Below are positions 2,456-60,149 of a stretch of 64,000 nt of DNA, in pieces; position 1 is the first letter of the stretch, and every line of letters starts with the position of its first letter. The DNA lies in assembly GCA_964017235.1 (NCBI GenBank), contig OZ024931.1:20126189-20190188 (forward strand), given 5' to 3'. The notes below the pieces were generated by a model, which was given only the letters and a program-made list of their open reading frames with translations, was not told the origin of the DNA and searched no databases. The position numbers were made by a program, and so were the translations under genes. This DNA comes from Sabellastarte sp. h YS-2021. Lineage: Eukaryota > Annelida > Polychaeta > Sabellida > Sabellidae.

Positions 2456-2468
2456 TACTGGGAGTTTG

Positions 2469-3388: not shown

Positions 3389-4164
3389 GGGCCCCTTCTT
3401 TCCATTATTATATCACATTTCTGTCATAATGTTACATGTTTATACTATATTATGACCTCGTGACCTGGTGGGACCTCTCCACTTCTCAACTCAAGGTTCA
3501 TGATCTGCTTGGGTGACCTTGACCTTTGACCTTAATTCACATCTGCTTGTCATTGATGGAGGTATTGTTTTCACCCCTCAATTTCTAAGGATAATTCAAT
3601 ACTACTTCATGGTTTACCTTGACCTTTGACGTCGATCCACCTGGGTTTTGACCTCCAGGTTTTATACCTTTCAACTTGTTTTATAATTTATACTTAATTC
3701 ATGTTGTATCAAGTAGATATGACCTCAGGTAGTACTTTATAATTTGACCTTCAGGTCAACCCCAGTTAGATTGGGGTCATGGGGGGGGGGTTCCAGATCT
3801 ATATTAATGAGATTATAATGTCAGCTTTTAGTACTCCTTTAAGTGGGGGCCACGGTGGCAGAGTGGTAACACTCTCGCCTCCCACCTCTGAGGCCGGGGT
3901 TCGATTCCCGGCCCGGCCTCAAGTGGGAAAGCTGGTAGTTGCTTGCCGTTGGTCGGCAGTTTACAGTACAGAACCCTAACGAACTCTATGTACTGGTTTC
4001 CTCTGCCCTTCCAACTACCCGTCGTGATATGACCTGTACAGTGTTGAAAGCGACGTAAAACCCCAAATAAATAAATTTAGTACTCCTTTATTAACATATA
4101 TTATGTACTCTTTCATGTCCTTTGTGTTATATGTCTTTACAAGTATTTTTAGTAGCAACATTTA
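3389..4164 (+). repeat. Split direct repeat B2 (right end of the first Ngaro-like element), split by a SINE
   Basis: Second copy of the 2469-3001 block, with scattered substitutions. It is interrupted by a SINE at 3842-4075 and resumes through 4164 (ends AGCAACATTTA). The end of the repeat marks the right boundary of the element. B1 and B2 differ by several substitutions and small indels, so this insertion is clearly older than the one at 31733. Confidence 0.85.
3842..4075 (+). mobile_element. tRNA-derived SINE, copy 1 (full length, 15-bp target-site duplication)
   Basis: The head is tRNA-like: an A-box-like TGGCAGAGTGG and a B box GGTTCGATTCC, with the arrangement of tRNA-Gly and CCC at the anticodon position. 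A tRNA-unrelated body follows, and the 3' end carries TTACGTCG in complement and an AATAAATAAA tail. A perfect 15-bp duplication, TTTAGTACTCCTTTA, flanks it at 3827-3841 and 4076-4090, which proves insertion into repeat B2. It would be transcribed by RNA polymerase III and moved by a LINE. Five more copies lie in this window. Confidence 0.92.
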
Positions 4165-8300: not shown

Positions 8301-8560
8301 ATCGATCAATGAGGGAAAGGTTTTTGAATTTGTGCATGTTGTTTCAAGGTGAAAATTGAAGTCGCGGATGATCACTAGATTTTCAGTGGTGTGATGAATG
8401 TCCTCCAAAACTGAACTGTTGAAAAAATGTTGGAGTACTGGAGGATGGTGGTCTGTATATATTCAGAAAATGAAAAGATTCTTTGTGTAGGGATATCTTG
8501 ATGAGGAAATTTTCAAAGGTGGTGCAGGTTAAATGAAACTATTCAATTATTAATAAACTT
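5375..8560 (-). mobile_element. CR1/L2-like non-LTR retrotransposon, decayed, minus strand
   Basis: A LINE that encoded an APE-type endonuclease and a reverse transcriptase. Read on the minus strand, 8480-8340 gives the endonuclease motifs NIYRPPSSSTP and a decayed GDFNFH, and 8300-8200 gives HGYTLDLVLTKSNN. The stretch 8179-7859 is the endonuclease-RT linker, and 7692-7228 is the fingers/palm (SLDPWPTFLVLDYLDIL, QSAYRKHHSTESALL). The YVDD active site is at 6371-6382, followed by the RT C-terminal region (HVRHLGVVFDSNF at 6200-6100) down to about 5600. The 3' tail is a short repeat of TAGAT type near 5376-5396. Many stops and frameshifts are present. It sits inside the RNase H region of an older Ngaro relic and is itself hit by a hAT MITE. 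A plus-strand relative is at 39056-40590. Confidence 0.82.
6400..6845. mobile_element. hAT-type MITE (446 bp) with 8-bp target-site duplication
   Basis: The termini are imperfect inverted repeats: TAGTGCTGTAA at the left and, reverse-complemented, TAGAGCTGTAA at the right. The 8-bp sequence GTTAATAC is duplicated exactly at 6392-6399 and 6846-6853. An 8-bp duplication with CAGTGCTG-like ends is typical of hAT transposons. The interior has no transposase and repeats CTCGAGTTCAACTCGAG-type motifs, so it is non-autonomous. It landed about 10 bp from the YVDD codons of the LINE. Confidence 0.85.
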
Positions 8561-30785: not shown

Positions 30786-31732
30786 AGATTTGATCCGGTT
30801 GTGGGAAAAAGTGATGCTTTCAACGCAGATGCACAAAATCCTGACAAATATGAATTAAATTTACATTTTTGTCCTTGTCACAGGCAAAAAATACAATGGG
30901 CTAAGGACTATAGTACTTTTAAGATATGGGATAGACAATGTCTGACAAATTTGGATTTATTCCTCTCCAACCAGCTACAGTACCTCATTCGTTAATGATT
31001 TACATTGGACTTTGACAATCAGATTGAATTATCACATACCATAGGTAACCATAGATCTGGCACTAAATACCCCCATGATCTTGAACCATACCTTACTGAA
31101 TAAAAACAATATAGTGATGTTTTAGGCCCATTTCGCAGTGCCCCCATTAAGAATCTCCTTGTATCCCCATTCATGACACATGAAAAACCAGGGGCCCCTC
31201 ATCACAGGTTCATTATTGACCTCAGCTTCCCTGCTGGTAAATCTGTCAATGCTGGGGTGGCTCCAGATTCAAACTTGTGTTGTAAATTTATGTTTATACT
31301 GACTACAGATTTGATCACAAATAAGCAAAGGTGTCCATATCTATAAAATTGACATACCCAGATCATTTAGACATGTAAAGATGGACACTTCTGATTATAA
31401 ATATTTAAGTTTGCACTTCCAAAGTTACTTTAATAAAAGTTGACTGCCTTTTGGGTTTTGTCTTGGCTCGGCCATCTTTCAATGCCTTCTCAGTACCGCC
31501 AGATATATAATGAGCAACAAATGCCATCAATATAACAACTATATTGATGATATAGTTGGGTATGCCACTAAATCCCAGGCACAAGCCTCTTTTAATACTT
31601 TGTATGAACTACTGTGATAACTAGGTTTCAAAAATAGTATGAATAAGTTAGTCAAACCCACCACTAAGGCTACCTGCCTAAGCGTTAAGTCAGACAATGA
31701 AATACTCCAATTGCTGTTCCACCTGAGAAACT
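30786..31732 (+). pseudogene. Older Ngaro-like RT relic, left half, host of a nested insertion
   Basis: Decayed plus-strand RT of the same family as 33332-35809. In order it shows NPDKYELNLHFCP (linker), then NLLVSPFMTHEKPGAPHHRF (about 31150-31210), DLSFPAGKSVNAG, and a decayed DIPRSFRHVK. A Y(I)DD region (NYIDDIVGYAT) is near 31540-31568. It ends in VPPEKL at 31709-31732. The sentence continues at 38590 with AEIKFTC.QW. Stops and indels show long decay before the young element landed in it. Confidence 0.83.
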
Positions 31733-31920
31733 GGGGGGGTGGAGCAATAGGCTCCACCCTAATCAGTGCACCACAGCGAAAAATATTCTTGTTAATGAAT
31801 TTCTTCGATAGGGTATAGATCTATTGCCTATTAAGTTTGCCGCCAAATTACAATTTAAGCCATTCAACATTGAAAAGTCAAAGGGGCAGGACGCCATTTT
31901 ATGGAACTGTGGAAATTTTT
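31733..31920 (+). repeat. Left terminal repeat A1 of the young Ngaro-like element
   Basis: 188 bp matching A2 with one mismatch seen. It opens with seven G and a perfect hairpin, GGTGGAGC-AATAG-GCTCCACC, at 31738-31758. The crossover with the target is at its left edge. Confidence 0.92.
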
Positions 31921-32334
31921 CTGTAGGACTTCATTTTAGTTTATGCCCTTCAATGTTGGATTGTCTTGGCGTATATGTGGATTGTTGTGTTCCTGCTTTG
32001 GACTCACCCTGAGGACGATTATCGAGCACAGAATCCAGGAGGATTAGTGCTTTGGTTTATGCGAGACTTGCTCCGGGATGCTGGAGCCACTGTGAAGGGA
32101 TGAGTTGCTTTTACATTATTTTAGTCATATTTTAATTCTTATTTTAGTCATTCCATTTTATCTTATTTTTATCTTATTATGTATCACTACTATTTACATG
32201 CATTTAGCTCGTTATTTCTACACTAGCGTGCACAACTCATCCTCTTAAGTGATCTCGTATTAATCAAAGCACACTGTGCTTCTATTATATTGCAGTACAA
32301 ACCATTTTAAAAACTAAAAATTGTGAACAAAAAT
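31921..32334 (+). promoter_or_regulatory. 5' leader of the young Ngaro-like element
   Basis: The 414 bp between A1 and the gag ATG contain no frame of note. Two polypyrimidine/AG sites (TTCTTATTTTAG near 32142; CTATTATATTGCAG ending at 32295) could serve as splice acceptors for a leader intron. Promoter position is not visible. Confidence 0.35.
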
Positions 32335-32796
32335 ATGCCCCCCAAGGAATATCTATGCAAGAAGTGTGGGGACATGCACAAGCGCCCAATTAACAGCAAG
32401 TGCCCGTTCATGGACAATAACAGTGACAATGACTCACAAAATGATTTGCTGCCTGGTGCTCAGGCATTGACACATAGTATTGACAGTGATTTAAACATGC
32501 AGATACTGGCAGAACTGAAGAGCTTAGGCGGCAGGATGACTGCCATGGAGCAGCAGATGGCAGAAAAGAAGACTGAGGACTCCAGGCAGTCGCAGATGCA
32601 ACAGACAGCTGCAGCCCTTACGACCCCAACCACGAGTGCAGCCCAGTTGGACCAAGTGGTGGTTCCTTCCATGGCAGCATTACAGAACTCTGACCAAATA
32701 CAGGCTCAGGTGGATCAACGCATCAGGCAACTTGCTCAGCTCAATGAATCAGGCAAGTTCAAGTCTCAGAGGGGGGGAGTGAAAATATTTGGGTGA
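32335..32796 (+). CDS. Gag-like ORF1, N-terminal frame (zinc finger and coiled coil)
   Basis: Structural/RNA-binding protein of the element. ATG at 32335 opens MPPKEYLCKKCGDMHKR, a C-x2-C-x3-H-x7-C finger (C8, C11, H15, C23). An acidic segment follows, then a helical, heptad-like stretch (about residues 55-85, MQILAELKSLGGRMTAMEQQ) and a Gln/Ala-rich linker. The frame stops at 32794-32796, just after a run of seven G at 32771-32777. The rest of gag continues in another frame. One additional G (or two fewer) would join both frames. The relic at 41707-42700 has a very long G run at the same place. Function is inferred from position and zinc motifs. Confidence 0.8.
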   Translation: MPPKEYLCKKCGDMHKRPINSKCPFMDNNSDNDSQNDLLPGAQALTHSIDSDLNMQILAELKSLGGRMTAMEQQMAEKKTEDSRQSQMQQTAAALTTPTTSAAQLDQVVVPSMAALQNSDQIQAQVDQRIRQLAQLNESGKFKSQRGGVKIFG

Positions 32797-33332
32797 AAAA
32801 ACAGGTGGCTTGGCCACAAAATTTCATTTTAGGTGGGAACAATAAAAGTAGAGTGTCATATGATAGCTTAAATTTATGTCAGTGGGTCTCAGGTTTTGCC
32901 ATGATGGCTAGGGAGGAGGTAAATATGGATAGGAAAAATGCTATGTTGGACTACCTGGGGGAACTTATGGAGGACGCGAATGATTTTAGTTGGCAGTCGG
33001 CAAAATCTGCACATGCAGTGCTTTTGTGTAGAATGGAGGAAGGGAAGGTTGAATGGACAGATACCAGTAAAATAGATAGAATTAGGAGGGCGCATGCCCA
33101 GAGGCCATACACACAGAATTTTGGCAATAATAATTCAAAACAGGGAAAGATAGAGGGCAAATCAAACATTTGCAGATTTTACCAAAGGGGAATGTGTCAA
33201 AATCAGAGGGATCACGAGACAGGGGGGGTTTTTTATAGACATATTTGTGCAACTTGCTACACCATGGGCAAAGAACATAGGCACATGGCCAAAGATTGTA
33301 GAGCATCCTCAAAATTTTCAAAAAACGAGTGA
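32793..33332 (+). CDS. Gag-like ORF1, C-terminal frame (conserved helical domain and C/H-rich finger)
   Basis: Continuation of gag in a shifted frame. Its open stretch actually reaches back to the G run, so GTG at 32793 is not a meaningful start. About residues 23-85 form the conserved domain (LNLCQWVSGFAMMAREE, AMLDYLGELMEDANDFSW), which is also present in the relic at 42108-42350. The C-terminus has a Cys/His cluster (C127, C135, H141, H150, C152, C155, H162, H164, C169: ICRFYQRGMC, RHICATC, HRHMAKDC) typical of Ngaro-like ORF1 proteins. The stop TGA at 33330-33332 overlaps the ATG of RT (TGATG), which suggests coupled re-initiation. Probably made as one protein with 32335-32796. Confidence 0.8.
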   Translation: MKKQVAWPQNFILGGNNKSRVSYDSLNLCQWVSGFAMMAREEVNMDRKNAMLDYLGELMEDANDFSWQSAKSAHAVLLCRMEEGKVEWTDTSKIDRIRRAHAQRPYTQNFGNNNSKQGKIEGKSNICRFYQRGMCQNQRDHETGGVFYRHICATCYTMGKEHRHMAKDCRASSKFSKNE

Positions 33333-35809
33333 TGCACTGCCACAGGGCAGTGCCTGAATTAACAACAAGGGATGGGGAACCAATGTGTGTAAATAAACAA
33401 AAGGTGTTTAATACAAGAATTGTATATTCAAATGTATGTAATCAGACTTGTAGTCTTAACTGGAGGGCCGACTGGGCTCGTTACTCGGGCAAAACTTATG
33501 CACAGGTGCTTAAAAGTAAGCCAGTAAGACAAGAGTTGGACATAGAGGTTCCAAAACAGGCAAAAGGCCTAGGGGCATTCAATAGTGACAAAACAGTAAT
33601 AAATGTAAGTTGGCAAGGCCAACAGCCAGTCAGTATTGCACCAGTCCGCCCTCCAGACAAAAAATGTGTTAACAGAACAAAAACTCAAACTAATGTGAAT
33701 AGTAAAGCAGCTAGCAAAGACTGCTTTCAAATAGCACTCAGTAACAGGTTTCTTCCCATTGCTATGCAACAGCAACAGTTTGAAGCGGTTACCAGTCAAA
33801 ATCAAGGGTCAAAAAACACCAACAAAAATGACTTTAACCCCCAAACTAAAGCTGTAAACACCCAATCTGCACCCAACAAAACAAAGAACAAGGGTGCAGA
33901 AAGGTCGGGTCAAAATATGGCACAACAGGCACCAATTCCAACGGAAAACAAATGCCAAAAAACATCGAAAGCACACTCAGGAAAAAACTTCCAAGGGGAA
34001 GACAAATATGACCTAGAGCTTCATACCACCAATAAAAATAAAATGAGAATAGCCAGGGCCAAACATGATCATACATACAAGCTTTGGTCAGATCAAAATC
34101 CGGACAAGTTTGGCTTCATACCCTTGGGTCCCTTAGTACTTCCAAACACAGATAAAGGCATAGTTATGGGTTCGGATCCGGTTTTACTCTATGATGCGGT
34201 CAAAAGCCAGAAACAGTATAATTTCTTGTCCAGTCAAGTCATACTTCACTCCCAGCTAAAATATCACGAATGGGAGAAAAGGTTAGGCAACTATTGGGAC
34301 CAACAACTCCTTTATTTGATAAAATACGGGTTTCCGCTTGATTTTGACATTGAGGCAACATTGGAATCGAATCACAAAAACCATTATTCAGCAGTGGCCT
34401 TTCCAGAGGATATAGAAAAATACATACATGAAGAAATTGAGTTCCAAGCAATTTTTGGCCCCTACGACATTCCACCCATTCAAAATTTACATGTATCACC
34501 ATTAATGACCAGAGAAAAACCTGGGGCAACACATAGGCGTGTGATAATGGACTTAAGTTATCCCCAGGGTCGGGCAGTCAATTCAAACATTAGCAAAGAT
34601 AAGTACTTAGGCACCGATTTTGTCCTCACCCTCCCATCTATAGATAACATCACAGAGAAGGTCAAAAAGTTTGGTAAAGGTTCTTTATTATACAAGATAG
34701 ACATTAGTCGTGCATTCAGACACGTAAAAATTGATCCAAGAGATTACTTCCTGATGGGTTTAAAGCACAAAAAATACTTTCTGGATACATGTCTCGCGTT
34801 CGGATTTCGGCACGGATCCGGAATTTTTCAGCGTTTAAGCGACGCCGTCAGGTACATCATGACGGCACAGGGTCATGACGTCATCAATTATATTGATGAC
34901 GTCATAGGTTTTGGCACCACCTCTACAGCAGACAAATCTTTTAAATTGCTTAAAAATACCCTAGAAACTCTGGGATTTGAAATCAGCATGAAGAAATTGA
35001 TACAACCCTCCACAAGAGTCACATGCTTAGGGGTAGAAGTCGACACTACAAATTTTACTGTAGCTGTACCTCAAGAAAAATTAGAAAAAATTTTAGCTAC
35101 CTGTCAGGAATGGCAGCATAGGGAAACCTGTAATAAAAAAGAACTGCAGTCTTTATTGGGCAGTCTATTATACATATCCAAATGTGTCAAAAATTCACGA
35201 ATTTTCCTAAATCGAATGTTAGATACTCTGCGTAGTCACAATAACACAGATAAGATTGTTCTGGACACTAGCTTTCATAGGGATTTGAACTGGTTTTCTA
35301 AGTTTCTCCCACAATTCAACGGGAGGGCGTTCTTTTCGCATAGCCCAGTACAGGCTACCATCGAACTCGACGCATGTTTGCAAGGGTTGGGCGCATACTG
35401 TATGAATCAAGTATATGCAATACAAATACCAGTACATTTAAAAAATTACACGATAGTACACTTGGAAATGTTAAATATTCTAGTTACCATCAGAGTTTGG
35501 AAAAAAATTTTCCAAAACAAAAGGATACTTATAGAGTGTGATAATCAAGCAGTTGTGTCGGTTCTCACCACAGGTAGGACTTCTGATTTGACATTAAGCG
35601 CTATTGCCAGAAATATTATGATGGAAACGGCAACCTATGATATTGAACTCCAAGTTATTCATATACTAGGTGTAGAAAACAAAATAGCTGACCTACTGTC
35701 AAGATGGTATATAACACCAAATCCTCACATCAGATTAAGTCAATTTATATCAGATCCGGAATGGTTACAACTTCCGGGCTCTATTATTAATATTGACTGG
35801 TCTATATAA
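33332..35809 (+). CDS. Reverse transcriptase-RNase H of the young Ngaro-like element
   Basis: Makes cDNA from the element RNA. ATG at 33332 overlaps the gag stop; 825 residues. Residues 1 to about 230 are a Lys/Asn/Gln-rich linker without recognised domains. RT follows, with the fingers (SPLMTREKPGATHRRVIMDL, about 388-407), first catalytic Asp in YKIDISRAFRHVK (D457), LAFGFRHGSGIFQRLSDAVR, and YIDD at 520-523. RNase H follows the RT thumb, with D680 (IELDACLQGLG), an HLEMLN glutamate, D737 (ECDNQAVV) and D787 (NKIADLLSRW). All catalytic residues expected are present and no stop interrupts. No methyltransferase domain follows, unlike in DIRS copies of this window. The recombinase frame begins at once downstream. 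Confidence 0.95.
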   Translation: MHCHRAVPELTTRDGEPMCVNKQKVFNTRIVYSNVCNQTCSLNWRADWARYSGKTYAQVLKSKPVRQELDIEVPKQAKGLGAFNSDKTVINVSWQGQQPVSIAPVRPPDKKCVNRTKTQTNVNSKAASKDCFQIALSNRFLPIAMQQQQFEAVTSQNQGSKNTNKNDFNPQTKAVNTQSAPNKTKNKGAERSGQNMAQQAPIPTENKCQKTSKAHSGKNFQGEDKYDLELHTTNKNKMRIARAKHDHTYKLWSDQNPDKFGFIPLGPLVLPNTDKGIVMGSDPVLLYDAVKSQKQYNFLSSQVILHSQLKYHEWEKRLGNYWDQQLLYLIKYGFPLDFDIEATLESNHKNHYSAVAFPEDIEKYIHEEIEFQAIFGPYDIPPIQNLHVSPLMTREKPGATHRRVIMDLSYPQGRAVNSNISKDKYLGTDFVLTLPSIDNITEKVKKFGKGSLLYKIDISRAFRHVKIDPRDYFLMGLKHKKYFLDTCLAFGFRHGSGIFQRLSDAVRYIMTAQGHDVINYIDDVIGFGTTSTADKSFKLLKNTLETLGFEISMKKLIQPSTRVTCLGVEVDTTNFTVAVPQEKLEKILATCQEWQHRETCNKKELQSLLGSLLYISKCVKNSRIFLNRMLDTLRSHNNTDKIVLDTSFHRDLNWFSKFLPQFNGRAFFSHSPVQATIELDACLQGLGAYCMNQVYAIQIPVHLKNYTIVHLEMLNILVTIRVWKKIFQNKRILIECDNQAVVSVLTTGRTSDLTLSAIARNIMMETATYDIELQVIHILGVENKIADLLSRWYITPNPHIRLSQFISDPEWLQLPGSIINIDWSI

Positions 35810-35835
35810 CAGGTATCCCGGCACCAGCTCGGAAT

Positions 35836-36813
35836 TTGGCCTCCAGGGCAGTATCCAGAGTTCACCAGTCTCTCAGACCAGCAACGCAAGCCTCCTACAA
35901 ACGAAAATTTAAGATTTTCATAGCTTATTGTTGTTTTGTCAATGTGCACCTGCATCAGCTATCCACAATTTTCATTCTATCATTTCTAGAATTTCTGCTG
36001 GAGAATGGCACCTCACCCTCGGGCGTTAGCAATTATACATCAGCTGTCAAGTCTAGCTTGGCTATGTATGGGGTTTCCACACTACCTTTCTTGGACCAGA
36101 GGATCATATATTTTCAAAAATCACTGGCTCGCCAGCGACAGTTTTCTATAAAAATCAAGAAAATAATAGACATCCCACTTCTTCAAAAGATCACTTCCTT
36201 ATGTGATACCACTTGGATGGGCCAGATATATAAAGCAACATACCTAGTCGCGTTCTTTTCCTTCTTGAGGATCTCCAATCTGGTCCCACATTCAATCTCT
36301 GCTTTTTCACCATTGGAACAGTTAACCAGGGGAGATATATTCTTTGCACCACCAGGAGTTCACCTGCTTATAAAGTGGTCGAAAACAATGCAAAACAGGG
36401 ACTCGGTCAAAATTATAAAAATCCCACAGCTAGGTACATCTCCCCTCTGCCCAGTCCAGGCATTAAAAAATCTATTAATCCTTACCCCTGGGAGTCAAAA
36501 CGATCCCTTGTTTCAGATTAAGAATGAAGGGGGCAGATGGGTACCATTAACAGACACAAAGGTGAGGCGCCACTTACAAGCAATCTTAGCAAGGCTCAAT
36601 TTGTCTCAATCTCAAATATGTCTACACACCTTCAGGCGTTCAGGTGCTACCTTGGCTTTTAACGCCAACGTTTCCTTACAAAATATAAAAAGTCATGGCA
36701 CCTGGACGTCTGACTGTGTCTGGAGATATATAGTTCAGGATCACAATGCATCCCAGGAAGTGGCTGAGGCATTCTCATCCATGCTTTATACACCTGCAGA
36801 ACCTACCCCCTAG
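35836..36813 (+). CDS. Tyrosine recombinase of the young Ngaro-like element
   Basis: Integrates the circular cDNA by site-specific strand exchange with a covalent phosphotyrosine step. Counting from the TTG at 35836, the N-terminal SAM-like core-binding part runs to about residue 110. The catalytic set is complete: R145 (FFSFLRISNL), H264 and R267 (LHTFRRSGATLAF), H287 and W290 (SHGTWTSD), and the nucleophile Y298 (VWRYI). There is no ATG before the core domain. The frame is open from 35797, overlaps the last codons of RT, and its first Met comes about 75 codons in. Translation by -1 frameshift from RT, by re-initiation at a non-AUG codon, or from a spliced mRNA is therefore likely. Intact to its own stop, 8 bp before B1. 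Confidence 0.93.
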   Translation: MASRAVSRVHQSLRPATQASYKRKFKIFIAYCCFVNVHLHQLSTIFILSFLEFLLENGTSPSGVSNYTSAVKSSLAMYGVSTLPFLDQRIIYFQKSLARQRQFSIKIKKIIDIPLLQKITSLCDTTWMGQIYKATYLVAFFSFLRISNLVPHSISAFSPLEQLTRGDIFFAPPGVHLLIKWSKTMQNRDSVKIIKIPQLGTSPLCPVQALKNLLILTPGSQNDPLFQIKNEGGRWVPLTDTKVRRHLQAILARLNLSQSQICLHTFRRSGATLAFNANVSLQNIKSHGTWTSDCVWRYIVQDHNASQEVAEAFSSMLYTPAEPTP

Positions 36814-36820
36814 TTGGGCA

Positions 36821-37257
36821 TTGGGGTGCGGCATCTACCTCACTTGATTTTTCTATATCACTTATATAACATAGATATATATACATAAATTAGCAGTAAC
36901 TTAGTTATCCATTGAGGTCACCTTTCTTTGGCGACAAGTAAGTTCATTTGGCAATCTCAAACTCAAAAAGTTTAAGGCCACCCTATTTTTAAAGTGTATC
37001 CACTTCTAAAATCTCATGTATGGACACTAATTGAAATATATATATGTAAATGAATTGAACATGTAATCTGGTGTTAAGGGGGCCTCAATTAGCTTCTTCC
37101 AAGTTTAAGGTGACCTCAAACTACTCTAAAGATGCTGTTTTAGTATTGTATATAAACTTAGACATTAAAAATATTATATCCCATGTCTGCATTTCATTTC
37201 TGTGTTTCACTGTAATGGTCACATCTTGCTGGTAATCCATCTGATGGGGCACTGTGG
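36821..37257 (+). repeat. Internal repeat B1 of the young Ngaro-like element
   Basis: 437 bp, matching B2 at 38153-38589 with one mismatch seen (CCCTATTTTTAAAG against CCCTATTCTTAAAG). It ends in CCATCTGATGG...CACTGTGG and runs straight into A2. The B1-A2 joint shows how the ends look in the circular intermediate. Confidence 0.93.
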
Positions 37258-37443
37258 GGGGGTGGAGCAATAGGCTCCACCCTAATCAGTGCACCACAGC
37301 GAAAAATATTCTTGTTAATCAATTTCTTCGATAGGGTATAGATCTATTGCCTATTAAGTTTGCCGCCAAATTACAATTTAAGCCATTCAACATTGAAAAG
37401 TCAAAGGGGCAGGACGCCATTTTATGGAACTGTGGAAATTTTT
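37256..37443 (+). repeat. Internal repeat A2 of the young Ngaro-like element
   Basis: 188 bp, copy of A1 with one mismatch (GTTAATCAAT for GTTAATGAAT). It includes the same seven-G run and hairpin (37261-37281). Confidence 0.92.
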
Positions 37444-38152
37444 CCCTCCTCCCACCCTGGTTCATCTCATTTCATCTGGAGCGAGCGTGTTCTCGGTAGG
37501 GTGGCCTCCTGCGAACCTAACTTTACAGCCTCTGTGGCGCAGGGGAGGGGTTGGGTGCCCTTGTATGTGCTCCTAGCTTGTTACCAATGGGGTTCACAGC
37601 ATTTGCACTTGTTAGCTAGTAGGGGGCCTCTCTACTTGACTCCTTAAGTTTGGGACCTTAGAGTCTCCTTCATTCATTCATTATTTCCAGGGTCATATTA
37701 TGAGATTATGGTTAGAAAAGTCCAATATGATTTTATTTTTCGCTGGGGTTATAGTATCAAACAATACTGTATGGGTGTATGTGCATGTTCTTGTTTATGT
37801 TTATATATTATGTAAATACATATGCATGTTTCTAAACTAGTTTTTGTAGTTTCAGAGTATCAGAGGCTCTGAACATTGAACCTGGGTAGCACAAGCCAGA
37901 AAGCACGAGGCTACCACAGACAAAGAAAAAATACCTTAATGTTCGATTTTTGCTTAATGTACTTTAAGGGTTTTTCAAAAATGAAACACGTTCACACTGT
38001 GCAATGTTAGACCTAAGTAGCCGAATTGCTCGGCACCCTAAGGCTTGAGTTAGGCATGGACTGGATATAGAACGGGACATTCCTCATACTTAAAGTTATT
38101 TTTTTTTAGTATAGCTTTTTAGTCAGGAACGTGTTTTGATTATTCTTTTAAC
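37444..38152 (+). other. Unique spacer between A2 and B2
   Basis: 709 bp without recognised coding content or similarity to the rest of the element. In typical split-repeat elements A2 and B2 adjoin, as they do at 3388/3389 in this window. It could be an extra functional 3' region or acquired sequence. Confidence 0.7.
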
Positions 38153-38589
38153 TTGGGGTGCGGCATCTACCTCACTTGATTTTTCTATATCACTTATATA
38201 ACATAGATATATATACATAAATTAGCAGTAACTTAGTTATCCATTGAGGTCACCTTTCTTTGGCGACAAGTAAGTTCATTTGGCAATCTCAAACTCAAAA
38301 AGTTTAAGGCCACCCTATTCTTAAAGTGTATCCACTTCTAAAATCTCATGTATGGACACTAATTGAAATATATATATGTAAATGAATTGAACATGTAATC
38401 TGGTGTTAAGGGGGCCTCAATTAGCTTCTTCCAAGTTTAAGGTGACCTCAAACTACTCTAAAGATGCTGTTTTAGTATTGTATATAAACTTAGACATTAA
38501 AAATATTATATCCCATGTCTGCATTTCATTTCTGTGTTTCACTGTAATGGTCACATCTTGCTGGTAATCCATCTGATGGGGCACTGTGG
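38153..38589 (+). repeat. Right terminal repeat B2 of the young Ngaro-like element
   Basis: 437-bp copy of B1. The right crossover (CACTGTGG|CTGAAATC) is at its end, and the interrupted RT relic resumes at once. Confidence 0.93.
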
Positions 38590-39055
38590 CTGAAATCAAG
38601 TTCACGTGTAGCCAATGGCTCACCAAAATATCATGCAAGAAAAAAAACCTTCAATCACTTCACAGAAAGTTACTCTATGTCACCAAATGTGTGCAGATGT
38701 TAGCCACCCTTAGATTGGCAAATAAGCATGATATCATACACTTAAACATTGACTTCACAAGGGACCTCAACTGGGTGACAGAATTCTTGCCCATATTTAA
38801 TGGGGTAACCTTTTTAAACACACCCACCCAAGCCCATGTAGAGTTTGATGCCTCACTCCAGGTCTAGGGGTTGTGTGTGGCAAAGAAATGTATATAATTA
38901 TGCAATTGCACTTCCCCTTGGCTAGGAAAACTATTATATTGTCCATCTAGAAATGGAAAATATTCGGGTATCCGTACCTGCGGTTATCACGGGAAAGAAA
39001 AAAAAGTAGTCATACATTGTGATAACCAGGCAGTAGTTGCAGTCTTTACCTCAGG
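38590..39055 (+). pseudogene. Older Ngaro-like RT/RNase H relic, right half
   Basis: Continues the relic that stops at 31732. AEIKFTC.QWLTK is followed by LQSLHRKLLYVTKCVQ, DFTRDLNWVTEFLPIFNGVT and the RNase H start VEFDASLQ (about 38840-38865). In a shifted frame come a decayed HLEM.NI and VIHCDNQAVVAVFTSG (about 39010-39055). A LINE begins immediately afterwards. Stops and indels are scattered. Confidence 0.83.
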
Positions 39056-40590
39056 TCCTCCATATCTTACTGGCAATCCAACCAGTCATTGCTGCATATC
39101 AACACATCAACTCGAGCATTCACTGTTCTGATGTTGTTAGTTTCTGTCAAAACATCATTGGACATCAAAAACGGATTGGATGCTTTTGTTATTCCGACCT
39201 TTACCACCTTTGAAAAGTTTCTCATTAAAATTTCCTAACACGAAGAATCTTTTCACTTTCTAAATGTATATAGACCACCATCCACCAGTACTCCAATCTT
39301 TTTTGAACAGTTTCAGTCACTTTTCGAAAACATTCATCGCACCAGTAATAATCTGGTGATCATCTGCGATTTCAATTTCACCTTGAAACAACATGCTCGA
39401 ATTCAAAAACCTTTCACTCACTGATTAACTCATTTTACCTAAAACAGAAAGGTAACTTCACCACATATTCATGGACATACTCTTGACTTGGTTTCAACCA
39501 AATCCAACAAAGCCAATATTTCTAATGTTCATAACACTGATACCTTTTTCGATCATTTTTCAATTAGCTGCACTGTAAATCTCTCGACTGCATCTTAAAT
39601 CTCTAGAACCCAAACTAATGCTACTGTTACCTTCGGCAAATATCATAAAATTGACAAAGAGAAAATGGAAACAGATATCCTTGCTTCTGAAATCCTTATC
39701 AATCCTCCCAAGGAAGCCAATACCTCTGTACAACCAATATTATTCAACCTTGTCAACCCTTGTTGATAAACATGCACCACCTCACACCAAACATGCCAAA
39801 GTGAAGTATATTACAAGATGGGTAAATGAAAGCGTAATAGCAGCAAAAGAGACCAAGCATTTACTCAAACGCATCTTGTGCAGAAACAAATCTACATTCA
39901 CTAGATCCCAATACACGCATAAAGTACTAGTGCTAGTTAGACGACAAGCCAAGTCGCTCCCATCATTAAATCGATAAGATTTGTGGAGTTCTTCAAATCA
40001 ATTGAAACACTTCGCTCTACTTTCCCTGCTTCCCTGAATTCGCAGCACATCACCTCAGACTCCCCCAGGGTTTCCTACTTTCTCCACTGTTACTGAGGAT
40101 CAAGGTGCCAAAATCATAATGAACTATCCAAGTAAATCATCTTCCCTTGACCCTTGGCCCACTTTTCTTATCCTTGATTATCTGGACATCCTCATCACAC
40201 CCATCACCTCAATAATCAATACCTCTCTTGAACAAGGTAAGTGTCCTAGCTTCTTCAAGCAGGCCCATGTTACCCCAATCCTAAAAAAATCCTCCTTAGA
40301 CAAAGAAGTTTTCAAAAATTATAGGCCTGTCTCTAATCTTTATTTCAAAGATACTTGAAAGGGTAGTAGCAGTCCAGCTCCAAACTCACCTTGATGAATC
40401 TGGCATTTATGACTGTGTTTCAATCAGCTTACAGAAAAGATCATTCTACTGAAAGTGCCCTCCTTAATATTCAGAATGATCTTCTTCTCATCACACACAG
40501 GATGAGGAAATCTAGTGCCATCTCTATTGATAACAAGATGCTTGAGGCTATCTGCAGCAGTAACTCAGCCAGGCCAATATAAACTACCTC
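39056..40590 (+). pseudogene. CR1/L2-like LINE relic, endonuclease and RT, plus strand
   Basis: Same family as the minus-strand LINE at 5375-8560. The endonuclease motifs are NVYRPPSTSTP (about 39265-39297) and ICDFNFHLE (about 39361-39388). The linker is an open stretch at 39618-39977 (YITRWVNESVIAAKETKH). The RT fingers are at 40119-40358 (SSSLDPWPTFLILDYLDIL) and QSAYRKDHSTESALLNI is near 40420-40470. The copy ends within the RT, before its active site, so it is truncated at both ends. It is inserted in, or abuts, the RNase H part of a Ngaro relic. Confidence 0.8.
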
Positions 40591-41700
40591 ACCATGGAAG
40601 ATACTAAGGCCCACATTAAAAGAGAAAACATAAGGCATTATGTGATTGAAAACCAAAAACTATAAAACTTTATTTATACCAAAATATAACTATAATTTTT
40701 TTTTGTATCTTGATTATTATGCTATTTAATACAGTTTTACTCTGAATAAAAACGTATGCTGAATAGATATACGTACTGAATAGATGGCCCACCAGTTATA
40801 TATATTTTATGGAGCTTATCAATAAATCCAATTATAGATTTAGTACTGACACGGATCTTTAAAAAGCTAAACAAAAAGCTAAATAATACTGAAAATCTAG
40901 TTATAATATGACCTTTAACCTTGAAATATTACAAAAGTAAAAATTAAGTTCATATTTAACCAACGTCAAATATGAAGATGGCCACCTTAATATATAGCTC
41001 AAGTGACCACCATAACATTTACCAATATGTGACACATATACCTCATTCCCACTAAAATGGCTCACCAGTTCAGGAAACTGGTACAATAGTTCCAAACTGG
41101 TTCTAGACCCAGTCTGATCTGCATTAGCACTACATACTTCAGGATACAAATGGAACGGTAAAATGTATAGCCTATGATTGGGCTGATAAAAAACCTACAG
41201 TCGAAATACTATGCTTAGTAACACTAAGGTGCCAGTGGGCTAATTTCCACCAGGGGGACCTTAAAGATCTTTGTATGGTTATGTTATACTTCTATACTAG
41301 GTATGTAATGTTATAATGAATTCTATTGGCCAGCGTGGTTAACCACATTGTAAAATAACTGGGGTTCTTCCATTTCAACTTCAGAAACCAGAGGGTCAAC
41401 ATCTAAAAAAATTACTGCTGTGTTGAATGGTTCCTGGGTGTATTGTTTCAAATTGTTTTTAAATGTCAAGTATTTTACACACAGTTGACTATGGAAAGAA
41501 CAGGCAGTACAAAACAACTTGCGTTCAGCCAAGCAGGGAAGTATTCAAGTACCCGTTCAAATTCAATTGTGCAAGGTATTTTTTTTAATCTTTCTTGAAC
41601 CTATATGAAAATTGCAATGAAGATTTGGATAACAATTCTAGTACTTCCGTACTTGGTGAATTAGATTGTTTGGTGTTATTAGACATATCGAACAGTTCAG
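40591..41700. other. AT-rich DNA without a recognised gene
   Basis: Nothing identifiable on either strand. It may include the decayed 5' end of the Ngaro relic that follows. Confidence 0.45.
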
Positions 41701-41706
41701 AAAAAA

Positions 41707-42700
41707 ATGAAAAAAATGGATCCAGGAAATGTTCATGAGAATAAAGCAGGCAGTCAGCAGGCGGGTTCATCCGGCAATGCTGATTGCAGTGCTCAGATAC
41801 TCATCAATCAAGAAATCTTGAGTCAATTGCATAAAATCAGTCAAAGATTGATAGTTCCAAATGTAAAAAGACGTCTGATTTTACAAAAAAAAAATAAAAA
41901 TAAGGGTTACAAAAGTCACACTAGTAGCCCCAAAGTAAAACAATCAAAGCACTCATCCACCAGGGAACAACAGTCACTAATCAATTCCAAACTTGTCGGA
42001 TACAGTAATAATAAGGGGGGGGGGGGGGGGGGGGGGGCAGATGTATTCGTGAAAAATCAGGTCTGATGGCCCCATGAAGATGTCGTATCTGGTTCCACCA
42101 AACAAAGATGGACTATGATCAGTTAACTATCATACAGTGGGTCTCTGACTTTTGCTGCACCATCAGGGAAAAATCTAATAAAAACATGAGGTCCTATATG
42201 TTAGATTACATCATTCCTTTAATGGATGATTCAAATGATTTTTCCTGGGGTGCGGCAAATGCCAGCCACATGGTGTTACTCTGTAAGATGGAACGGGGGG
42301 GGGGGGGGGGGGTGATAAAAGACTTCAGTCAAATTATTGAAAATAATTGACAGAGTCAGAAGGGCAAATGCCCAGAGACTTATGCCAAACGGATCTAGTA
42401 ATAACCCTTGTCAGTACAGAAAAAATGTTCAAAAGCATCGTTAATCTATGGTATGCACATATGTCAACCAAAACACATGTAATTTTACCAAGACCAATGA
42501 GATCAAAGGTGTCCTGTATAGACACATTTGTGCCACATGTTTCAGTGCTTGTAAAAACATTCTCTCATTCTGATAGTGACTGTAGGCAAAACAGAAAAAC
42601 CCAAAAAAGAGTCATAATGGATGTGGGACGCACTAGGCACCACAGCAAAACAAAACAAAAAAACACAACAATGTTACAAGGAACACCAGGCTTCCCCTGA
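41707..42700 (+). pseudogene. Ngaro-like gag relic with two expanded poly-G tracts
   Basis: It corresponds to ORF1 at 32335-33332. The first part (41707-42012) includes ILINQEILSQLHKISQRL, similar in place to the coiled coil. A run of 23 G follows (42015-42037), then DVFVKNQV. The conserved domain is at 42108-42290 (LTIIQWVSDFCCTIRE, YMLDYIIPLMDDSNDFSW) and breaks at a second run of 18 G (42295-42312). The Cys/His finger remains only in traces (YRHICATC-like near 42520-42545). Not functional in its present form. Confidence 0.78.
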
Positions 42701-45700
42701 TATTTGGAAAGATTGGTGACAAAAAGTAAAGCTTTTGCTAACAAGTGTGATAGCAGAATTTTTGCACAAGTCCTGAAACAGAATAAAGCATTAAAAATAC
42801 AAATTTCTGAAACAGAATAAAGGATTAAAAATACAAATTTCTTTGGAATAAACCCCCATTTCTGACCAGGTCACATATTCCAGCAAGGTCTACAATGGCA
42901 GCAGCCATAAAACTGTAAAACAGTGTCAGGCTAAAAAAGTCCTTCAAAATAGCAGGCAAAACTCACATTAGAGTACTGGTTTGCCGAAAGGTTGAACTTT
43001 CACCTAAATGGCAAATTACAGTCTCCAACAGATATGTCCCAAAAATCAGTGTTACTCTTATAATTTGGAAGACTCAGATAGGATCTGAGGCTGATCTGAA
43101 CAGTAGTCAAGGTCAAAATAAACGCAAAAAACAAGGTCAAAACAAGAAGTAGGGCTACAACAGCAGATCCCAAAGACTGCTGTATTGAATGACACAGATC
43201 AGGATGCTCAGACTTTTTCTGCTCAGCAACAATGTGACAGTAGTTTTGATTTGAATGATAATAATTATTAGACCACGCCACCTATGCCAAGATTATAACA
43301 ATTGTTTTCACATCAGGATTTATACCCCTTACTTCATTAAAAGTGTACAATGGGTTTCAAAAACTTGGGATCCTATTCCAGATACACTGCATTTATTTAT
43401 TTATTTGGGGTTTTACGTCGGTGTAACACTGTACAGGCCATATCACAATGGGTAGTTGGAAGGGCAGAGGAAACCAGTACATACAGTTAATCAAGGTTTT
43501 GTACTGTAAACTGCTGACCAACGGCAAGCAACTACCAGCTTTCCCACTAGAGGTTGAGCCGTGAACCGAACCCCAGCCTCAGAGGTGGGAGGTGAGAGTG
43601 TTACCACTCTGCCACTATGGCCCCTCCAGATACACTTCAAGCACATAAGCCAATTAAAGAAAGTGGTGTCCCTAACTATTTATAATAGAATAGAATACAA
43701 AAGAATGGAAACAATACTTACAAGATAGATTATTGGGACAAACAGCTAATAGACTTAATTATCTATGGATTTCCTTTAGTTTTTGATAGGACTGAATATG
43801 GTGCCTTACTCGATTCATTTGATTCCTTGCCAATAGAAGCTCATATATTGCCTCTCATGACAAGATCCAAACAAAATTATGAGAAATGTCGGACTATTAT
43901 GTACCTCAGATGGCCACAAGGACACTCGATTAACACTGGGGTTTATAAGAATAGTTATTTGGATACATATTTCAAACTACATTACCCCTCCATAGACAAT
44001 ATTACTGCTGCCTTAAATACTTTAGGTCCTGGGGCTATGTTTTATCAAATAGACATTAGCCGTGCAGTTAGACACATCAGGATATAGACTTATTAGGTGT
44101 TTCACATCAGAGGCCGTATTTGAATCGAGGACTTCCTTTCGGATTTTGTTATGATTTGGTTTTCTTCCTGCATTGTTCTTCCGTCACATAATGTGCCAAT
44201 ATGGCTTCACAGGTCTGGAACTATATTGACGATCTAATATACACAGGATTGTCCTCTAAAATGCATAAATCGTTTCTTATTGTTACTGTTGCAAGAACTT
44301 TGACTGGATATTGGTAAATAAAAGTTAGTAGCCCCAACAACTTCTGCTATATGTTTAGGAATCATGGTAAATACCTCATTGAGAACAATATCTATTCCAG
44401 ACCAAAAGTTGCTAGAAAAAATCCCTTTGTAAAAATGGACTCTAAAGTCACAATGCACAAAAATTCAACTACAGTCCTTACTTTGCTCCCTTCTCTACAT
44501 AACAAAATGCATGAAGCCAGCACGGTCTTTCCTTAATAGAATGCTAACAGTACTAAGCGACAATCATTTAAGTTAAAAAATTACACTAACTCAAGAGTTT
44601 TTAAAGAGCTTAACTGGTTTAATGTTTTCATTCAAACATATAATGGGGTGGCTTTCTATGACACTCAGAGAGTAGACGAAATCATACATTTAAATGCTTG
44701 TTTGACTGGACTGGAAGATGCTTTTAACAATATGGTATATACTCACCCATTCCTCTAAATTATTAAACATCAACCACCAAGAAATTATGAACATTATGGT
44801 GTCTATCAAAATATGGGGTCCTATATGAGGCAACAAAAAGATTAAGATTAATTGCGATAACTTGCCAGTTGTAGAGGTACTAAATAGTGGCAGGGCCAAA
44901 GATGAAACTCTGGCAACATGCACAAGAAACACGCACTCTACAGTATTCAGAGTCCAACACATTGCTGGCTCTGAAAATAATGTGGCAGGTCTGTTATCTA
45001 GATGGAAAAATTCACTATATGATTTTCATGTGTCAGCTGGACTGTCCCTAGAACAGGTAGATATATGACAGTTGTTCAATTTCATGGAATTTGGCAGAAT
45101 TATTTGGCTGCCATTAGAGCCAAATTCATTGCTTATGGTCTTCCTACTCCCATGTTCAGGGACGAGAGAGTACAGTTATATATTAAATCATTACAGTTCA
45201 ACAGGCACTAAGTTAAGCCTTCCCATCCATTCATCAATACAGATGACATATTTTGAGAAATAGTTTTTATTGGCCATCAGTTGCCTCTTGCACAGTTATT
45301 TATTTTATAAATACTTTTGCTTTCTTTTCATCTCTTAGAATTTCAAATATACCACCACACACATCCACAGCATTTGATGTCACCAGGCACCTCTGTAGAG
45401 GTGTCACTGTTTTACTTATATGGTCAAAGACATTACAGGACAGAAAGGAAACCAGAACTATTGTTATCCCAGCTTTAGGGGAGGGAGCTATCTGCCCTGT
45501 AGCAGCAATGAAAACCATGCTCACTACTGACCACTTATGTTCCAATGATCCATTATTTTCAATTAGGCATGCAGGTAGGACTACTGCACTGACTGATTCA
45601 ACGGCCAGGAAGCATCTTAGGCTAGTAGGTACTAAATTGCATCGCCCTGCACACCTCACTGTTCATATGTTTACGAAAGGTGGAACCTTTAAATCACTTC

Positions 45701-50113: not shown

Positions 50114-52120
50114 GTGAATTGCTTCACTTATAACCGGTGCTGGGAGAAGTGGGAAGTTCTGGGTTTGAGTCCAAAAGTAGTCCCCACACTGAGGGAGGGC
50201 TACACCCTCCCCTTCCGGTTCAGACCCAACTTGACAAGGTCACCAACTGTAATAAGCAACTACCACAACCCAGCCAAGCAGTCCTTCCTTTTAGAAGCAC
50301 TGTATCAGCTGGTGAACAAGAATACAGTACAACCGGTAGAAAATCAAACTCACAGGGCAACCGGCTATTTTTGGTACCCGAGCCCAACAACCGGTGGAGA
50401 CCTGTCCTGGTCCCGAGCACCTTGAACACCTTTTTGAACACAGGGACGTTCAAGATGGAAGCCCCAGAGACAATAAGAACCTCCCTCCAAGCAGGGGAGT
50501 GGGTCACATCCATAGATTTCAAAGAAGCATACTTCCACATACCAATTCACAGTCAGTCCAGGAAGTACATGCGCTTTTACCTCCAGGGTCGGTCCTACCA
50601 GTTCAAGCCCTTCCCTTTGGCCTGTCCACAGCTCCCATGGAGTTCACAGTGGTGGCCAAAGAGGTCAAACTCGTGGCTTTTCAGAAGGGTATAAGGATCC
50701 ACCAGTACCTAGACGACTGGCCTGCTGAGAGCCTCTACCCACCACACCTGTCTCCAGCATACTCAAACCCTAGTCACACTTTGTCAGGAATTAGGGTGGC
50801 TGGTGAACAAGGAAAAGTTAGAGCTGGTTCCCAAACAGGTCTTCAACTTCGTAGGTTACCAGTTCGACCTGAAAGAGGGCAAGGTCAGACCAACAGAAGA
50901 ACGTTGGCAGGCCTTGACACACAAGATCAGATCAATATTGTCGGATCCGCTTTGCCCGGTCCGACAATTCATGTCCCTCATAGTTCTACTCACAGCAACA
51001 GAAAAGCAAGTCCACTTAGGGCGACTAACATGAGACCCATACAGTGGCACTTGAAAAACAACTGGAGGGTCCCAGAGTCACTGGAAAAGGTGATCTCGGT
51101 CCCCAAATCCCTCCACCCCCATCTAAGGTGGTGGCTGGAGGAAAGCAATGTGCTTCTAGGTCAACCATTACACCCTCTAAAACATGCTCTGCAAATCTTT
51201 ACAGACGCATCAATAGAAGGGTGGGGCGCTCACTTAGACGAGCACACTGCAAGGGGACAGTGGTCCCTACCCGAGAGCAAGTTACACATAAACCACTTGG
51301 AGCTGAAAGCAGTATTTCTAGCTCTAAAAGAGTTTCAAACCCTAGTCTTCAACAAGACAGTGTTGGTAGCTACAGACAACACAACAGTGGTTGCCTATAT
51401 CAGCAAAGAAGGGGGGATGAAATCGGGCTCTCTGTGTGCCCTACTGTGGAGAATTCTGTCCTGGTGCACCAGGCAGCAAGTAACCCTCAGGGCACGTCAC
51501 ATCCCCGGCCGGCTGAACGTGATAGCAGACAAGCTATCCAGGCTTGGCCAGACCATTCAAACAGAGTGTCCCAAGCTGTATGTTCAAGGTGGCATCAGCC
51601 ACAAGTGGACCTGTTTGCCACCAGGTTCAACAACAAACTACCACAGTTTGTATCACCGGTACCAGACCCCCAGGCTTGGGCAGTGGATGCACTCAGCCTG
51701 TCCTGGGAGGACCTGGACCCATACGCCTTCCCACAGGCAGCCATCTTGGGCAAAGTGGTGGAGAAGCTCCAGGACTACCCCTGCAACAGAATAATTCTGA
51801 TTGCTCCAGGGTGGCCCAACATGCCCTGGTTTTGGGACCTGGTAGCAATGTCAAGCCAGATCCCACTGTGTCTGCCCAGCATACCCAACCTAGTGTCTCA
51901 GCCATTCAACCAGGTCCTTCACAGGAACCTGCCGAATCTGAACCTACATGCCTGGCTCCTAGAGCCTCAGCAATCAAGGAGCAAGGCTTCTCTGAGGCAG
52001 TGGCAGCACGAATTGAGGCTCCTCAAAGAAGGTCAACCAGATCTGTCTATGAGGCAAAGTGGACCATTTTTACAAAGTGGTGCCTCAGTAATCAGGTGGA
52101 CTTCAGGGCACCACCTCTGA
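50114..52120 (+). pseudogene. DIRS RT-RNase H-methyltransferase-like ORF, copy 1, with frameshifts
   Basis: The leader EGYTLPFRFRPNLTRSPTVI is in one frame (50114-50425). RT proper begins in the next (NRLFLVPEPNNRW, then EWVTSIDFKEAYFHIPI with the first Asp). It shifts near 50615, shows YLDD at 50706-50717, shifts again near 50740 and near 51030, and passes into RNase H (FTDASIEGWGAH, ATDNTTVVAYI). It shifts near 51570 to the methyltransferase-like domain (HQPQVDLFATRFNNKLPQFV, then YAFPQAAILGKVV), which ends RWTSGHHL at 52120. The last domain corresponds to the Dam-like region described for DIRS and PAT elements. At least four frame breaks make it inactive. Confidence 0.88.
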
Positions 52121-53034
52121 AAGCCATTGCTGACTTCCTCCTGCACTTATTTCAGGAGAAGAAGTTACAACCAAGCACTATTGATGGCTACAGATCCGCC
52201 ATTGCTGACAAACTGGGCAATTCCACCATTAATGTCAGCAAAGATGAGAATCTCTCTCGTCTCCTGGATAGTTTCCATAGAGACAGACCTAAGGGCAGGA
52301 GGGGCATCCCCTCCTGGAACCTTTCACTGGTTTTACATCAGCTCACAAAGGCTCCCTTTGATTCCCTGAAAGAGGCCTCCTTGAAACATCTAACTTTCAA
52401 GACTGTTTTCTTGCTGGCTTTGGGTTCAGGTAAACGCAGGAGTGAGATCCATGCTTGGTTACATAAGAACATCAGACACCAGTCGGACTGGTCTAAGGTG
52501 TTTTTGTACCCCTCACCCAGTTTCCTATCCAAGAACCAGCTGGCTAAGGAAGGTCCAGATAGTGTGGCACCAGTGGTCATCCCAGCCCTGGCACCATCTC
52601 TGGATAGGTCACTCAAGGGTGACAGGTCCCTATGTCCAGTTAGAGCCCTGCGCTACTACTTGGACAGGACTGCAGACCTCAGGCAGAATAAGGAGTTAGT
52701 CTTTGTCTCCTTCAAGAAGGGTTTTGATAAAGACATCTCACCTGCCACCATCTCCTCATGGATCAAACAGACTGTGGTTCTGTGCTATGAGCTCTCTGAC
52801 CAGGAGGCCCTCACCTTACATCAGGTTAAAGCCCATGATGTTAGGGCCTTTGCTGCCTCTAAGGCTTTCCAATTAGGGATTTCCTTAGATCAGATCTTGT
52901 CAGCCTGCCACTGGAAATCTCACAACACCTTCACCCAATTCTATTTGAAGGATGTTGCCTGGGCTGACTCGGAGCTTTTCCACCTGGGACCTGTAGTGGC
53001 TGCCCAGCAGGTGCACCACCAGACCCAGAAATGA
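51544..53034 (+). CDS. Tyrosine recombinase of DIRS copy 1 (intact catalytic core)
   Basis: Recombinase that would insert the circular DNA. The frame is open for 496 codons and overlaps the methyltransferase-like frame by about 580 bp. The true start is unknown; recognisable recombinase sequence begins near FSEAVAARIEAPQRRSTRSV (about residue 148, nt 51985). The catalytic set is complete: R298/R299 (GSGKRRSEIHA), H431 and R434 (AHDVRAFAAS), H456 and W457 (ACHWKSHNTF), and Y467 (TQFYL). The stop is at 53032-53034. The sister copy at 59080-60149 has a frameshift and a stop at places where this copy is whole. Copy 1 thus has a sound recombinase beside a broken RT. Confidence 0.9.
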   Translation: MARPFKQSVPSCMFKVASATSGPVCHQVQQQTTTVCITGTRPPGLGSGCTQPVLGGPGPIRLPTGSHLGQSGGEAPGLPLQQNNSDCSRVAQHALVLGPGSNVKPDPTVSAQHTQPSVSAIQPGPSQEPAESEPTCLAPRASAIKEQGFSEAVAARIEAPQRRSTRSVYEAKWTIFTKWCLSNQVDFRAPPLKAIADFLLHLFQEKKLQPSTIDGYRSAIADKLGNSTINVSKDENLSRLLDSFHRDRPKGRRGIPSWNLSLVLHQLTKAPFDSLKEASLKHLTFKTVFLLALGSGKRRSEIHAWLHKNIRHQSDWSKVFLYPSPSFLSKNQLAKEGPDSVAPVVIPALAPSLDRSLKGDRSLCPVRALRYYLDRTADLRQNKELVFVSFKKGFDKDISPATISSWIKQTVVLCYELSDQEALTLHQVKAHDVRAFAASKAFQLGISLDQILSACHWKSHNTFTQFYLKDVAWADSELFHLGPVVAAQQVHHQTQK

Positions 53035-53362
53035 GGGGATGTTGTATATATGTAAATATGTACATATTGTAAAAAAAACAAAAAAAAAACTGTGACTTGC
53101 TTCCCTTGGGAAGTTTATTTCTTCTGGGACTGAACTCAGCCCCTCTCTCTCTATCTTTCCCTTCTCAAACCGACTCTGGAAGGAAAGAAAAAGGGGGGGG
53201 CAACGTCGGCAGACTCCCGGTTAACCGGTGAGTTAGTGGCCGACCTTGACCTGTCAGGGTTCTCTGACCCTAGGTCAAATGGGCCTGTACAATTTTGTTT
53301 TGTTATGAGTTCACAGAAGTCCCTAGCTGCTTACCCGCCTACCAAGCGGTAGTTATTCAGCC

Positions 53363-58722: not shown

Positions 58723-59079
58723 ATATGCTGAATAACTACCGCTTGGTCGGTGGGTAAGTTACTAGGGACTTAAGTGAACTCAGAAAAGAACTAACAAAAT
58801 TTCCTCCAAGCCTGGGTCGACCTTGAGGTCGGCAAGACCCTTAAGGCTATAGTCGGTCAACAGAAACCGGTTAATTGGTCCAAACCGACTCGCCTCCCCC
58901 CCTTTTTTTACAGACTTGCTCTGAGGTAGGGGAAGAGAGGGATGAGTTCAGTCCCTTAGGAAATAAACCACCCGAAGGAAGCATGTCAGAGTTTTTTTTT
59001 ATGCTTCTTAAATATATATATACACTATTTACATATGCACAATTATTTACATATGTATAGATCTCCTCCCTGTCCTGGG
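58723..59079. other. 3' non-coding part of DIRS copy 2
   Basis: No gene. Similar in reverse complement to 53035-53362 of copy 1 (AATAACTACCGCTTGGT, then a C-rich/T-rich tract and GGAAATAAAC). Confidence 0.7.
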
Positions 59080-60149
59080 CTACTGGTGGACCTGTTGAGC
59101 AGCCACCACAGGTCCCAGGTGGTAAAGCTCGGAATCAGCCCAAGCCACATCCTTCAGGTAAAATTGTGTGAAGGTATTATGTGATTTCCAATGGCAGGCT
59201 GACAAAATCTGTTCTAAGGAAACTCCTGATTGGAAGGCCTTAGAAGCAGCAAAGGCCCTGACATCATGGGCTTTTATTTGATGCAATGAGTGGGCCTGGT
59301 GATCAGAGAGCTCATAACAAAGGATCACAGTTTGCTTGATCCAGGAGGAGATGGTGGCAGGGGAGATGTCTTTGTCGAAGCCTTTCTTAAAAGAGACAAA
59401 AACTAGCTCCTTATTCTGCCTGAGGCCTGAGGTTCTGTCCAAGTAGTAGAGCAAGGCTCTGACTGGGCAGAGGGACCTATCAGACTTGAGGGATTTGTCC
59501 AGAGTTGGTGCCAGGGCTGGAATAACCACTGGGGCAACACTATCTGGGCCCTCTTTGGCCAGCTGATTCTTAGAAAGAAAGCTGGGTGATGGCTACAGAG
59601 ACACCTTGGACCAGTCGGACTGGTGTCTGATATTCTTGTGCTGCCAAGCATGTATCTCACTTCTTCTCTTACCCGAACCGAGGGCTAAGAGGAAAACAGT
59701 TTTGAAGGTCAAGTGCTTTAGTGATGCTTCTTTGAGAGGCTCAAAGGGAGCCTTGGTCAGTTGGTGTAATACCAAGGAGAGGTTCCAGGAGCGGATTCCC
59801 CTCCGACCCTTGGGTCTGTCTCTATGAAACTATCCAGGAGACAGGCGAAATTTTCATCTTTGCTGATGTTACGGGGCGAGTTCCCCAGCTTATCAGCAAT
59901 GGCAGATCTGTAACCATCAATGGTGCTGGGCTGTAACTTCCTGTCCTGGAAGAGGTACAAAAGAAAGTCTGCCACTGACTTCACAGGTGGTGACCTGAAG
60001 TCCACCTTATGATTGATGCACCACTTTGTAAAAATGGCCCACTTTGCCTCGTAGACTGATCTGGTTGACCCTCTTTGCGGAGCCTCAATTCTTGCTGCCA
60101 CCGCCTCAGAGAAACCCTGCCCCTTGAAAGCTGTGGCTCTAAGAGCCAT
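59080..60149 (-). pseudogene. DIRS tyrosine recombinase, copy 2, with frameshift and stop
   Basis: Sister of 51544-53034. The N-terminal core-binding part is at 60149-59790 (GFSEAVAARIEAPQRGSTRS). A frameshift lies near 59800, and the catalytic Arg motif is intact at about 59685-59655 (GSGKRRSEIHA). An in-frame stop lies just after KVSL near 59595. The rest (59529-59080) keeps HDVRAFAASKAFQSG and CHWKSHNTFTQFYL. All catalytic residues survive but the frame does not. The upstream part of the frame (60686-60189) is also open and overlaps the methyltransferase-like frame. Confidence 0.88.

Follow-up and report, generated by a model that had tools for sequence, protein, structure and literature searches.

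The locus analysed here raises the question of how a retrotransposon that carries a tyrosine recombinase (YR) enters its target. In the window, which is the whole 64,000-nt stretch of Sabellastarte sp. h YS-2021 DNA that was analysed and whose numbering is used throughout, a complete copy lies inside the reverse transcriptase (RT) gene of an older relative, and the site as it was before the insertion can be read to the base. The accessible text of PMC3266345 explains the entry of YR retrotransposons by a circle model drawn up for DIRS1, in which the target carries an identical 3-bp sequence. The element family described here offers 20 right and 22 left junctions from one genome in addition to the base-readable empty site, and its insertion rule differs from the published three-base model; it thus supplies a weak target motif together with a testable contradiction of the three-base rule.

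The whole nested element (31732-38586, + strand, as for all its features below) has the order A1-ORF1-RT/RNaseH-YR-B1-A2-spacer-B2. The left split direct repeat A1 (31732..31921, from repeat D2 and its mismatch list) starts with the element's own TGGGGGGG, the initial T of which is found in most left ends of other copies, and A1 differs from A2 (37255..37444) at 1 of 190 positions. B1 (36821..37254) and B2 (38153..38586), the latter being the right end of the element, both end in GGGGCACTG and differ at 1 of 434 positions; the A and B repeats together thus differ at 2 of 624 positions, and hence the element is likely young. The nine terminal bases of B2 are identical in 18 of 20 right ends, with one base changed in the other two. 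A2 and B2 are separated by a spacer (37445..38152) in which no coding domain was recognised from open frames and Pfam. A 10-nt inverted pair (37245-37254 and 37287-37296), with a hairpin at 37260-37282, flanks the B1/A2 joint (37245..37296), where the crossover point would lie between G37254 and T37255; these inverted arms and the hairpin about the crossover (37245-37296) are conserved across sub-families. All repeats of at least 25 nt inside the element are direct, and the inverted terminal repeats with an internal complementary region of DIRS1-like elements are absent.

Between the repeats, ORF1 consists of two overlapping frames, with the frame change near a G run. The first (32335..32796) is an open frame that is gag-like by position only and has no Pfam match above cut-off, while the second (32748..33332) has a Cys/His-rich end, as judged by eye, and weak zf-CCCH matches below the Pfam cut-off; a relic related to it lies in the window at 42096-42555. 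The RT and RNase H share an open frame of 835 aa (33302..35809), for which 504 relatives were found and in which Pfam detects RVT_1 above cut-off (E 5.5e-10) and RT_RNaseH below its own cut-off (E 2.4e-4). The YR (35797..36813, 338 aa) gave no match to PDB sequences, and its structure model has a Cre-like fold; across 69 sequences, K196, H277 and W303 are invariant and R158, R280 and Y311 are conserved in at least 90%. No relatives were confirmed in viral and prokaryote collections, and Rfam gave no match in the window at the gathering threshold.

By its architecture, the element probably belongs to the Ngaro-like group as a new member, sharing with it the split direct repeats A1-ORFs-B1-A2-B2 and an RT-RNaseH and YR on the same strand. 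PAT-like elements are comparable in their split direct repeats but, like DIRS elements and unlike Ngaro-like ones, carry a methyltransferase domain. Pfam detected no methyltransferase in the four main and five further frames of the element, although it may lack a model for the DIRS-type domain. The spacer of 708 nt between A2 and B2 is a feature of the element described here, and amphibian Ngaro-like members carry an SGNH hydrolase, according to the accessible part of PMC9210276, whereas this element has none. Solo AB repeats in Cafeteria, as well as regions preferred by Ngaros, are reported in the available sections of PMC8547959; in the titles, abstracts and text passages accessible from open papers, we found no work on which target bases lie where Ngaros insert.

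The element sits on the same strand as the RT relic of the older relative, which tblastn places at 30834..31731 on the left and which continues at 38590..39062 on the right without loss or gain; over the matched pieces, it has roughly 32-50% amino acid identity to the element's own RT. The original prediction, in which a young element of Ngaro-like type is nested within an older relative, is borne out by the near-identical repeats and by the relic on both sides, with IAVPPEKL ending at the left junction and AEIKFTCSQW resuming past the right one. The left junction is AAAC-TGGGGGGGTGGAGC, the internal joint CACTG-TGGGGGGGTGGAGC and the right junction CACTG-TGGCTGAAATC, as had been proposed, and the inferred empty site is AAACTGGCTGAAATC. 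The inserted block comprises 6855 nt (31732-38586 or, equivalently, 31735-38589); the interval proposed earlier, 31733-38589, is 2 nt off, since it spans 6857 nt and its removal disrupts the reading frame, with AAACTCTGAAATC remaining. Among the 120 best of the 504 RT relatives, the segment spanning the insertion is 18 residues long in 119, the remaining one being cut there, and it is also 18 residues long in the element's own RT. As the joined relic flanks again give 18 residues, the insertion left the number of target bases unchanged at protein resolution, and this exact family length is beyond chance.

The host genome, which spans 1.79 Gb in 647 contigs, was searched three times, and 40 of 194, 402 and 159 candidates were scored, so that copy counts are lower bounds. 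This search for joint-bearing copies and their flanks, which the original prediction had suggested, found CACTG/T at all 15 aligned internal joints (10 distinct), including those of a sub-family whose A end starts with TAGCGGG. The element's T, followed by GG or A, is present at 22 of the 24 left starts read, which is the figure to be used for T retention because left ends were chosen with patterns starting in T. C4 (lost in a G run), L042 (T missing before a G run), L103 (a joint) and L049 and L100 (A start missing) were dropped as left ends. Right ends show CACTG and then free sequence, after dropping L082 (last CACTG base missing), C8 (B2 cut short), L022 (B end not found) and a stray CACTG inside L060; six stretches at predicted end positions (L105-L110) contained no ends.

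The target bases before the insertion point carry a weak motif. RRWH at positions -4 to -1 fits 13 of 22 left ends, compared to 2.9 expected, and G is absent from position -1 in all 22. Since RRWH was first seen by eye, and thus chosen after inspection, the fair tests are the leave-one-out test, with a combined P of 2e-10, and the information tests. The signal, which was not matched in any of 10000 random draws, lies in the 12 left ends picked as younger or as having intact A starts; the other ten left ends alone are below significance (P 0.11-0.16), and the last four left ends to be retrieved all fail to fit RRWH strictly. The left flank at the window site itself reaches only quantile 0.12 of the motif score, and a motif in the right flanks was not significant (P 0.06-0.26).

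The best-supported explanation, and in our judgement a probable one, is a recombinase-mediated insertion at the G/T point of joined B/A ends. The element's own Cre-like YR would act on a substrate in which the B and A ends are joined, the crossover would occur at the G/T point of the B/A joint, and the left flank of the target, CAGAT-like as against CACTG at the B end, may guide insertion as a weak half-site of the recombinase. In this way, the RT gene of the older relative would have been interrupted with its bases neither gained nor lost. The scar is of the recombinase type rather than the integrase or LINE type, as anticipated, but to call it direct evidence for a circle claimed too much, as it equally fits a circle, a linear cDNA whose ends are joined and a folded single strand. 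Linear single-stranded cDNA is reportedly the subject of work by Malicki in 2020, going by its title, and DIRS-1 circles are said to have been verified. The latter statement is found in the accessible part of PMC5633606.

When folded as single-stranded DNA, the B/A joint forms a double stem, at the edge of which the crossover lies (z -4.8). Ten of the 15 aligned joints were folded, the window and L068 sharing core letters, and eight of them form the double stem, with none in L076 and a partial one in L014. Covariation was not supported in the folded joint: changes on both sides of a pair are absent from the outer helix and affect one pair in the inner helix, and 156 of 500 shuffles match the score. 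The B-A arm alone is weak (reached by 38 of 1000 shuffles), its duplex energy is unremarkable (reached by 338 of 1000), and the joint of the window's other Ngaro-like element lacks such a fold (z -0.95). The conservation of the joint would also follow if it served as a pair of conserved binding arms in double-stranded form. Integron cassettes are inserted by tyrosine recombinases as folded single strands, and the crossover lies at the edge of their double stem. Insertion of a folded single strand is likewise described for filamentous phages in the accessible text of PMC3089051, which also mentions integrons. A foldable double-stem joint, a stem-edge crossover and one-point junctions are common to these systems and the element; the likeness is mechanistic only, and a single-strand step would be hypothetical for the element, whose folded joint is without covariation. 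It is conceivable, though we regard it as unlikely, that integration is of this kind. Single-stranded cDNA would fold at the B/A joint into the double stem, one strand would be exchanged at the unpaired G/T point with the weak CAGAT-like target half-site, and replication would complete the insertion. If true, this would account for the element sequence on the left, the free target on the right and the lack of both a shared overlap and a duplication, as well as for single A-x-B units acting as separate cassettes.

The full element consists of two such A-x-B units in succession, U1 (31732-37254) and U2 (37255-38586), and distances and alignments distinguish copies with U1 alone, U2 alone, both, or a U1-U2-U2 tandem. 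C6 is a U1-only copy with 5.5 kb between its ends, which were read, the middle being deduced from the distance, and C18 is a U2-only copy. U1-U2-U2 tandems of the TA sub-family with clean B/A joints lie at C1:157759773-157767841 and C2:11479824-11488068, with their U1 middles placed by distance. The U1-only, U2-only and U1-U2-U2 copies fit a YR resolution of a two-joint circle and a homologous exchange between repeats alike. The family further leads to the prediction that every A-x-B unit would be a mobile cassette.

DIRS1-like elements resemble this one in having a YR instead of an integrase, no target duplication and a joined-end sequence that is the crossover. DIRS1 itself has inverted terminal repeats and is held to recombine with a target of identical 3 bp, as far as PMC3266345 is accessible, whereas here the repeats are direct and the triplet is not needed. 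Under the rule stated for DIRS1-like elements in the same source, the 3-bp junction of a circle crosses over with the same three bases in the target. This would fit the window site, where TGG occurs in the joint as well as at either flank, the target TGG being at 38587..38589. The original prediction of a shared TGG with nothing duplicated is therefore correct for the window site read alone, but not for TGG as the crossover, because the left TGG is element sequence. Among the 20 right ends, three bases are shared with the joint in only three, the window site included, none in ten and at least four in none, so that the three bases required by the DIRS1 rule are missing in 17 and even one is missing in ten. 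TGG directly follows B2 in the window and in C8b, with different bases in the other 18, and the inferred C7 target, GAGAT/AGTAAG, has no TGG. Hence, TGG is the sequence of the element's A end and not a required target core, and as a general core it is ruled out by the other copies. The shared bases sum to 19 over the 20 right ends, compared to 8.3 expected (P 0.002), an excess that speaks for the rule; short matches are thus favoured but unnecessary, and the match at the window site is mostly luck. Altogether, we consider the DIRS1-type rule improbable for this family.

Target duplications were sought in nine insertions with intact ends and both flanks by comparing shared words within 40 nt to shuffles, leaving out three 5′-truncated copies and those pairs whose ends have decayed (L042 with L077, L046 with L082, and C8). 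As in Ngaro-like elements, a duplication is absent at the window site, and none was detectable in eight of the nine complete pairs. The flanks of the ninth, C7, share 17 bp; a 17-bp target duplication is unlikely there, as the flanks form a local palindromic repeat. When the joined C7 flanks were compared to the neighbouring repeat units, two of four alignments ran ungapped over the junction, while in the other two 1-2 nt gaps lie to the right of it, at a distance of up to about 5 nt. The lack of a detectable duplication, together with short matches at right ends, is also what the capture of a complete linear cDNA at a chromosome break by end joining would produce. However, both ends are exact in all nine tested pairs, where ragged ends and small losses would be expected, and the left target motif is significant, which is unexpected under end joining; such a capture is thus a distinctly improbable origin.

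A copy at C2:124542850 (L066) is 5′-truncated, with a 24-bp flanking duplication, an exact CACTG end and no poly(A). It may derive from a LINE-type capture or from a filled-in break, and its duplication implies that some copies arrived by another route. For the window copy, a LINE-type target-primed insertion of element RNA, to which L066 lends some weight, is very unlikely, since the copy is complete, the length of its site is exactly kept, and the complete pairs mostly lack a detectable duplication. Equally far-fetched is a nested arrangement due to assembly error or a later exchange between relatives, for although the A and B repeats could mislead an assembly, and the data are assembled sequence only, the same joint recurs in near-identical copies that have different flanks on different contigs, and around the window copy the reading frame carries on from one flank to the other. 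As a control on assembly, a SINE-like insert in the second YR element of the window keeps its 15-bp duplication beside its own empty copy.

This second YR retroelement (16-4164) comprises an RT (16-1395), a YR (1484-2453), B1 (2469-3001), A2 from 3002 and B2 (3389-4164), the last being split by the SINE-like insert (3842-4075, tRNA-like by eye, with the 15-bp duplication); the letters of its joint are unlike those of the main element. At 41683-45684, fragments of ORF1, RT and YR mark the relic of a further old YR retroelement. Long inverted repeat arms, about 76-81% complementary, are found at 50141-53058 and 59044-61982. A further inverted repeat pair, at 39376-40488 and 7149-8354, resembles a non-LTR RT fragment by eye, and one repeat of this pair adjoins the older RT relic on its right side.
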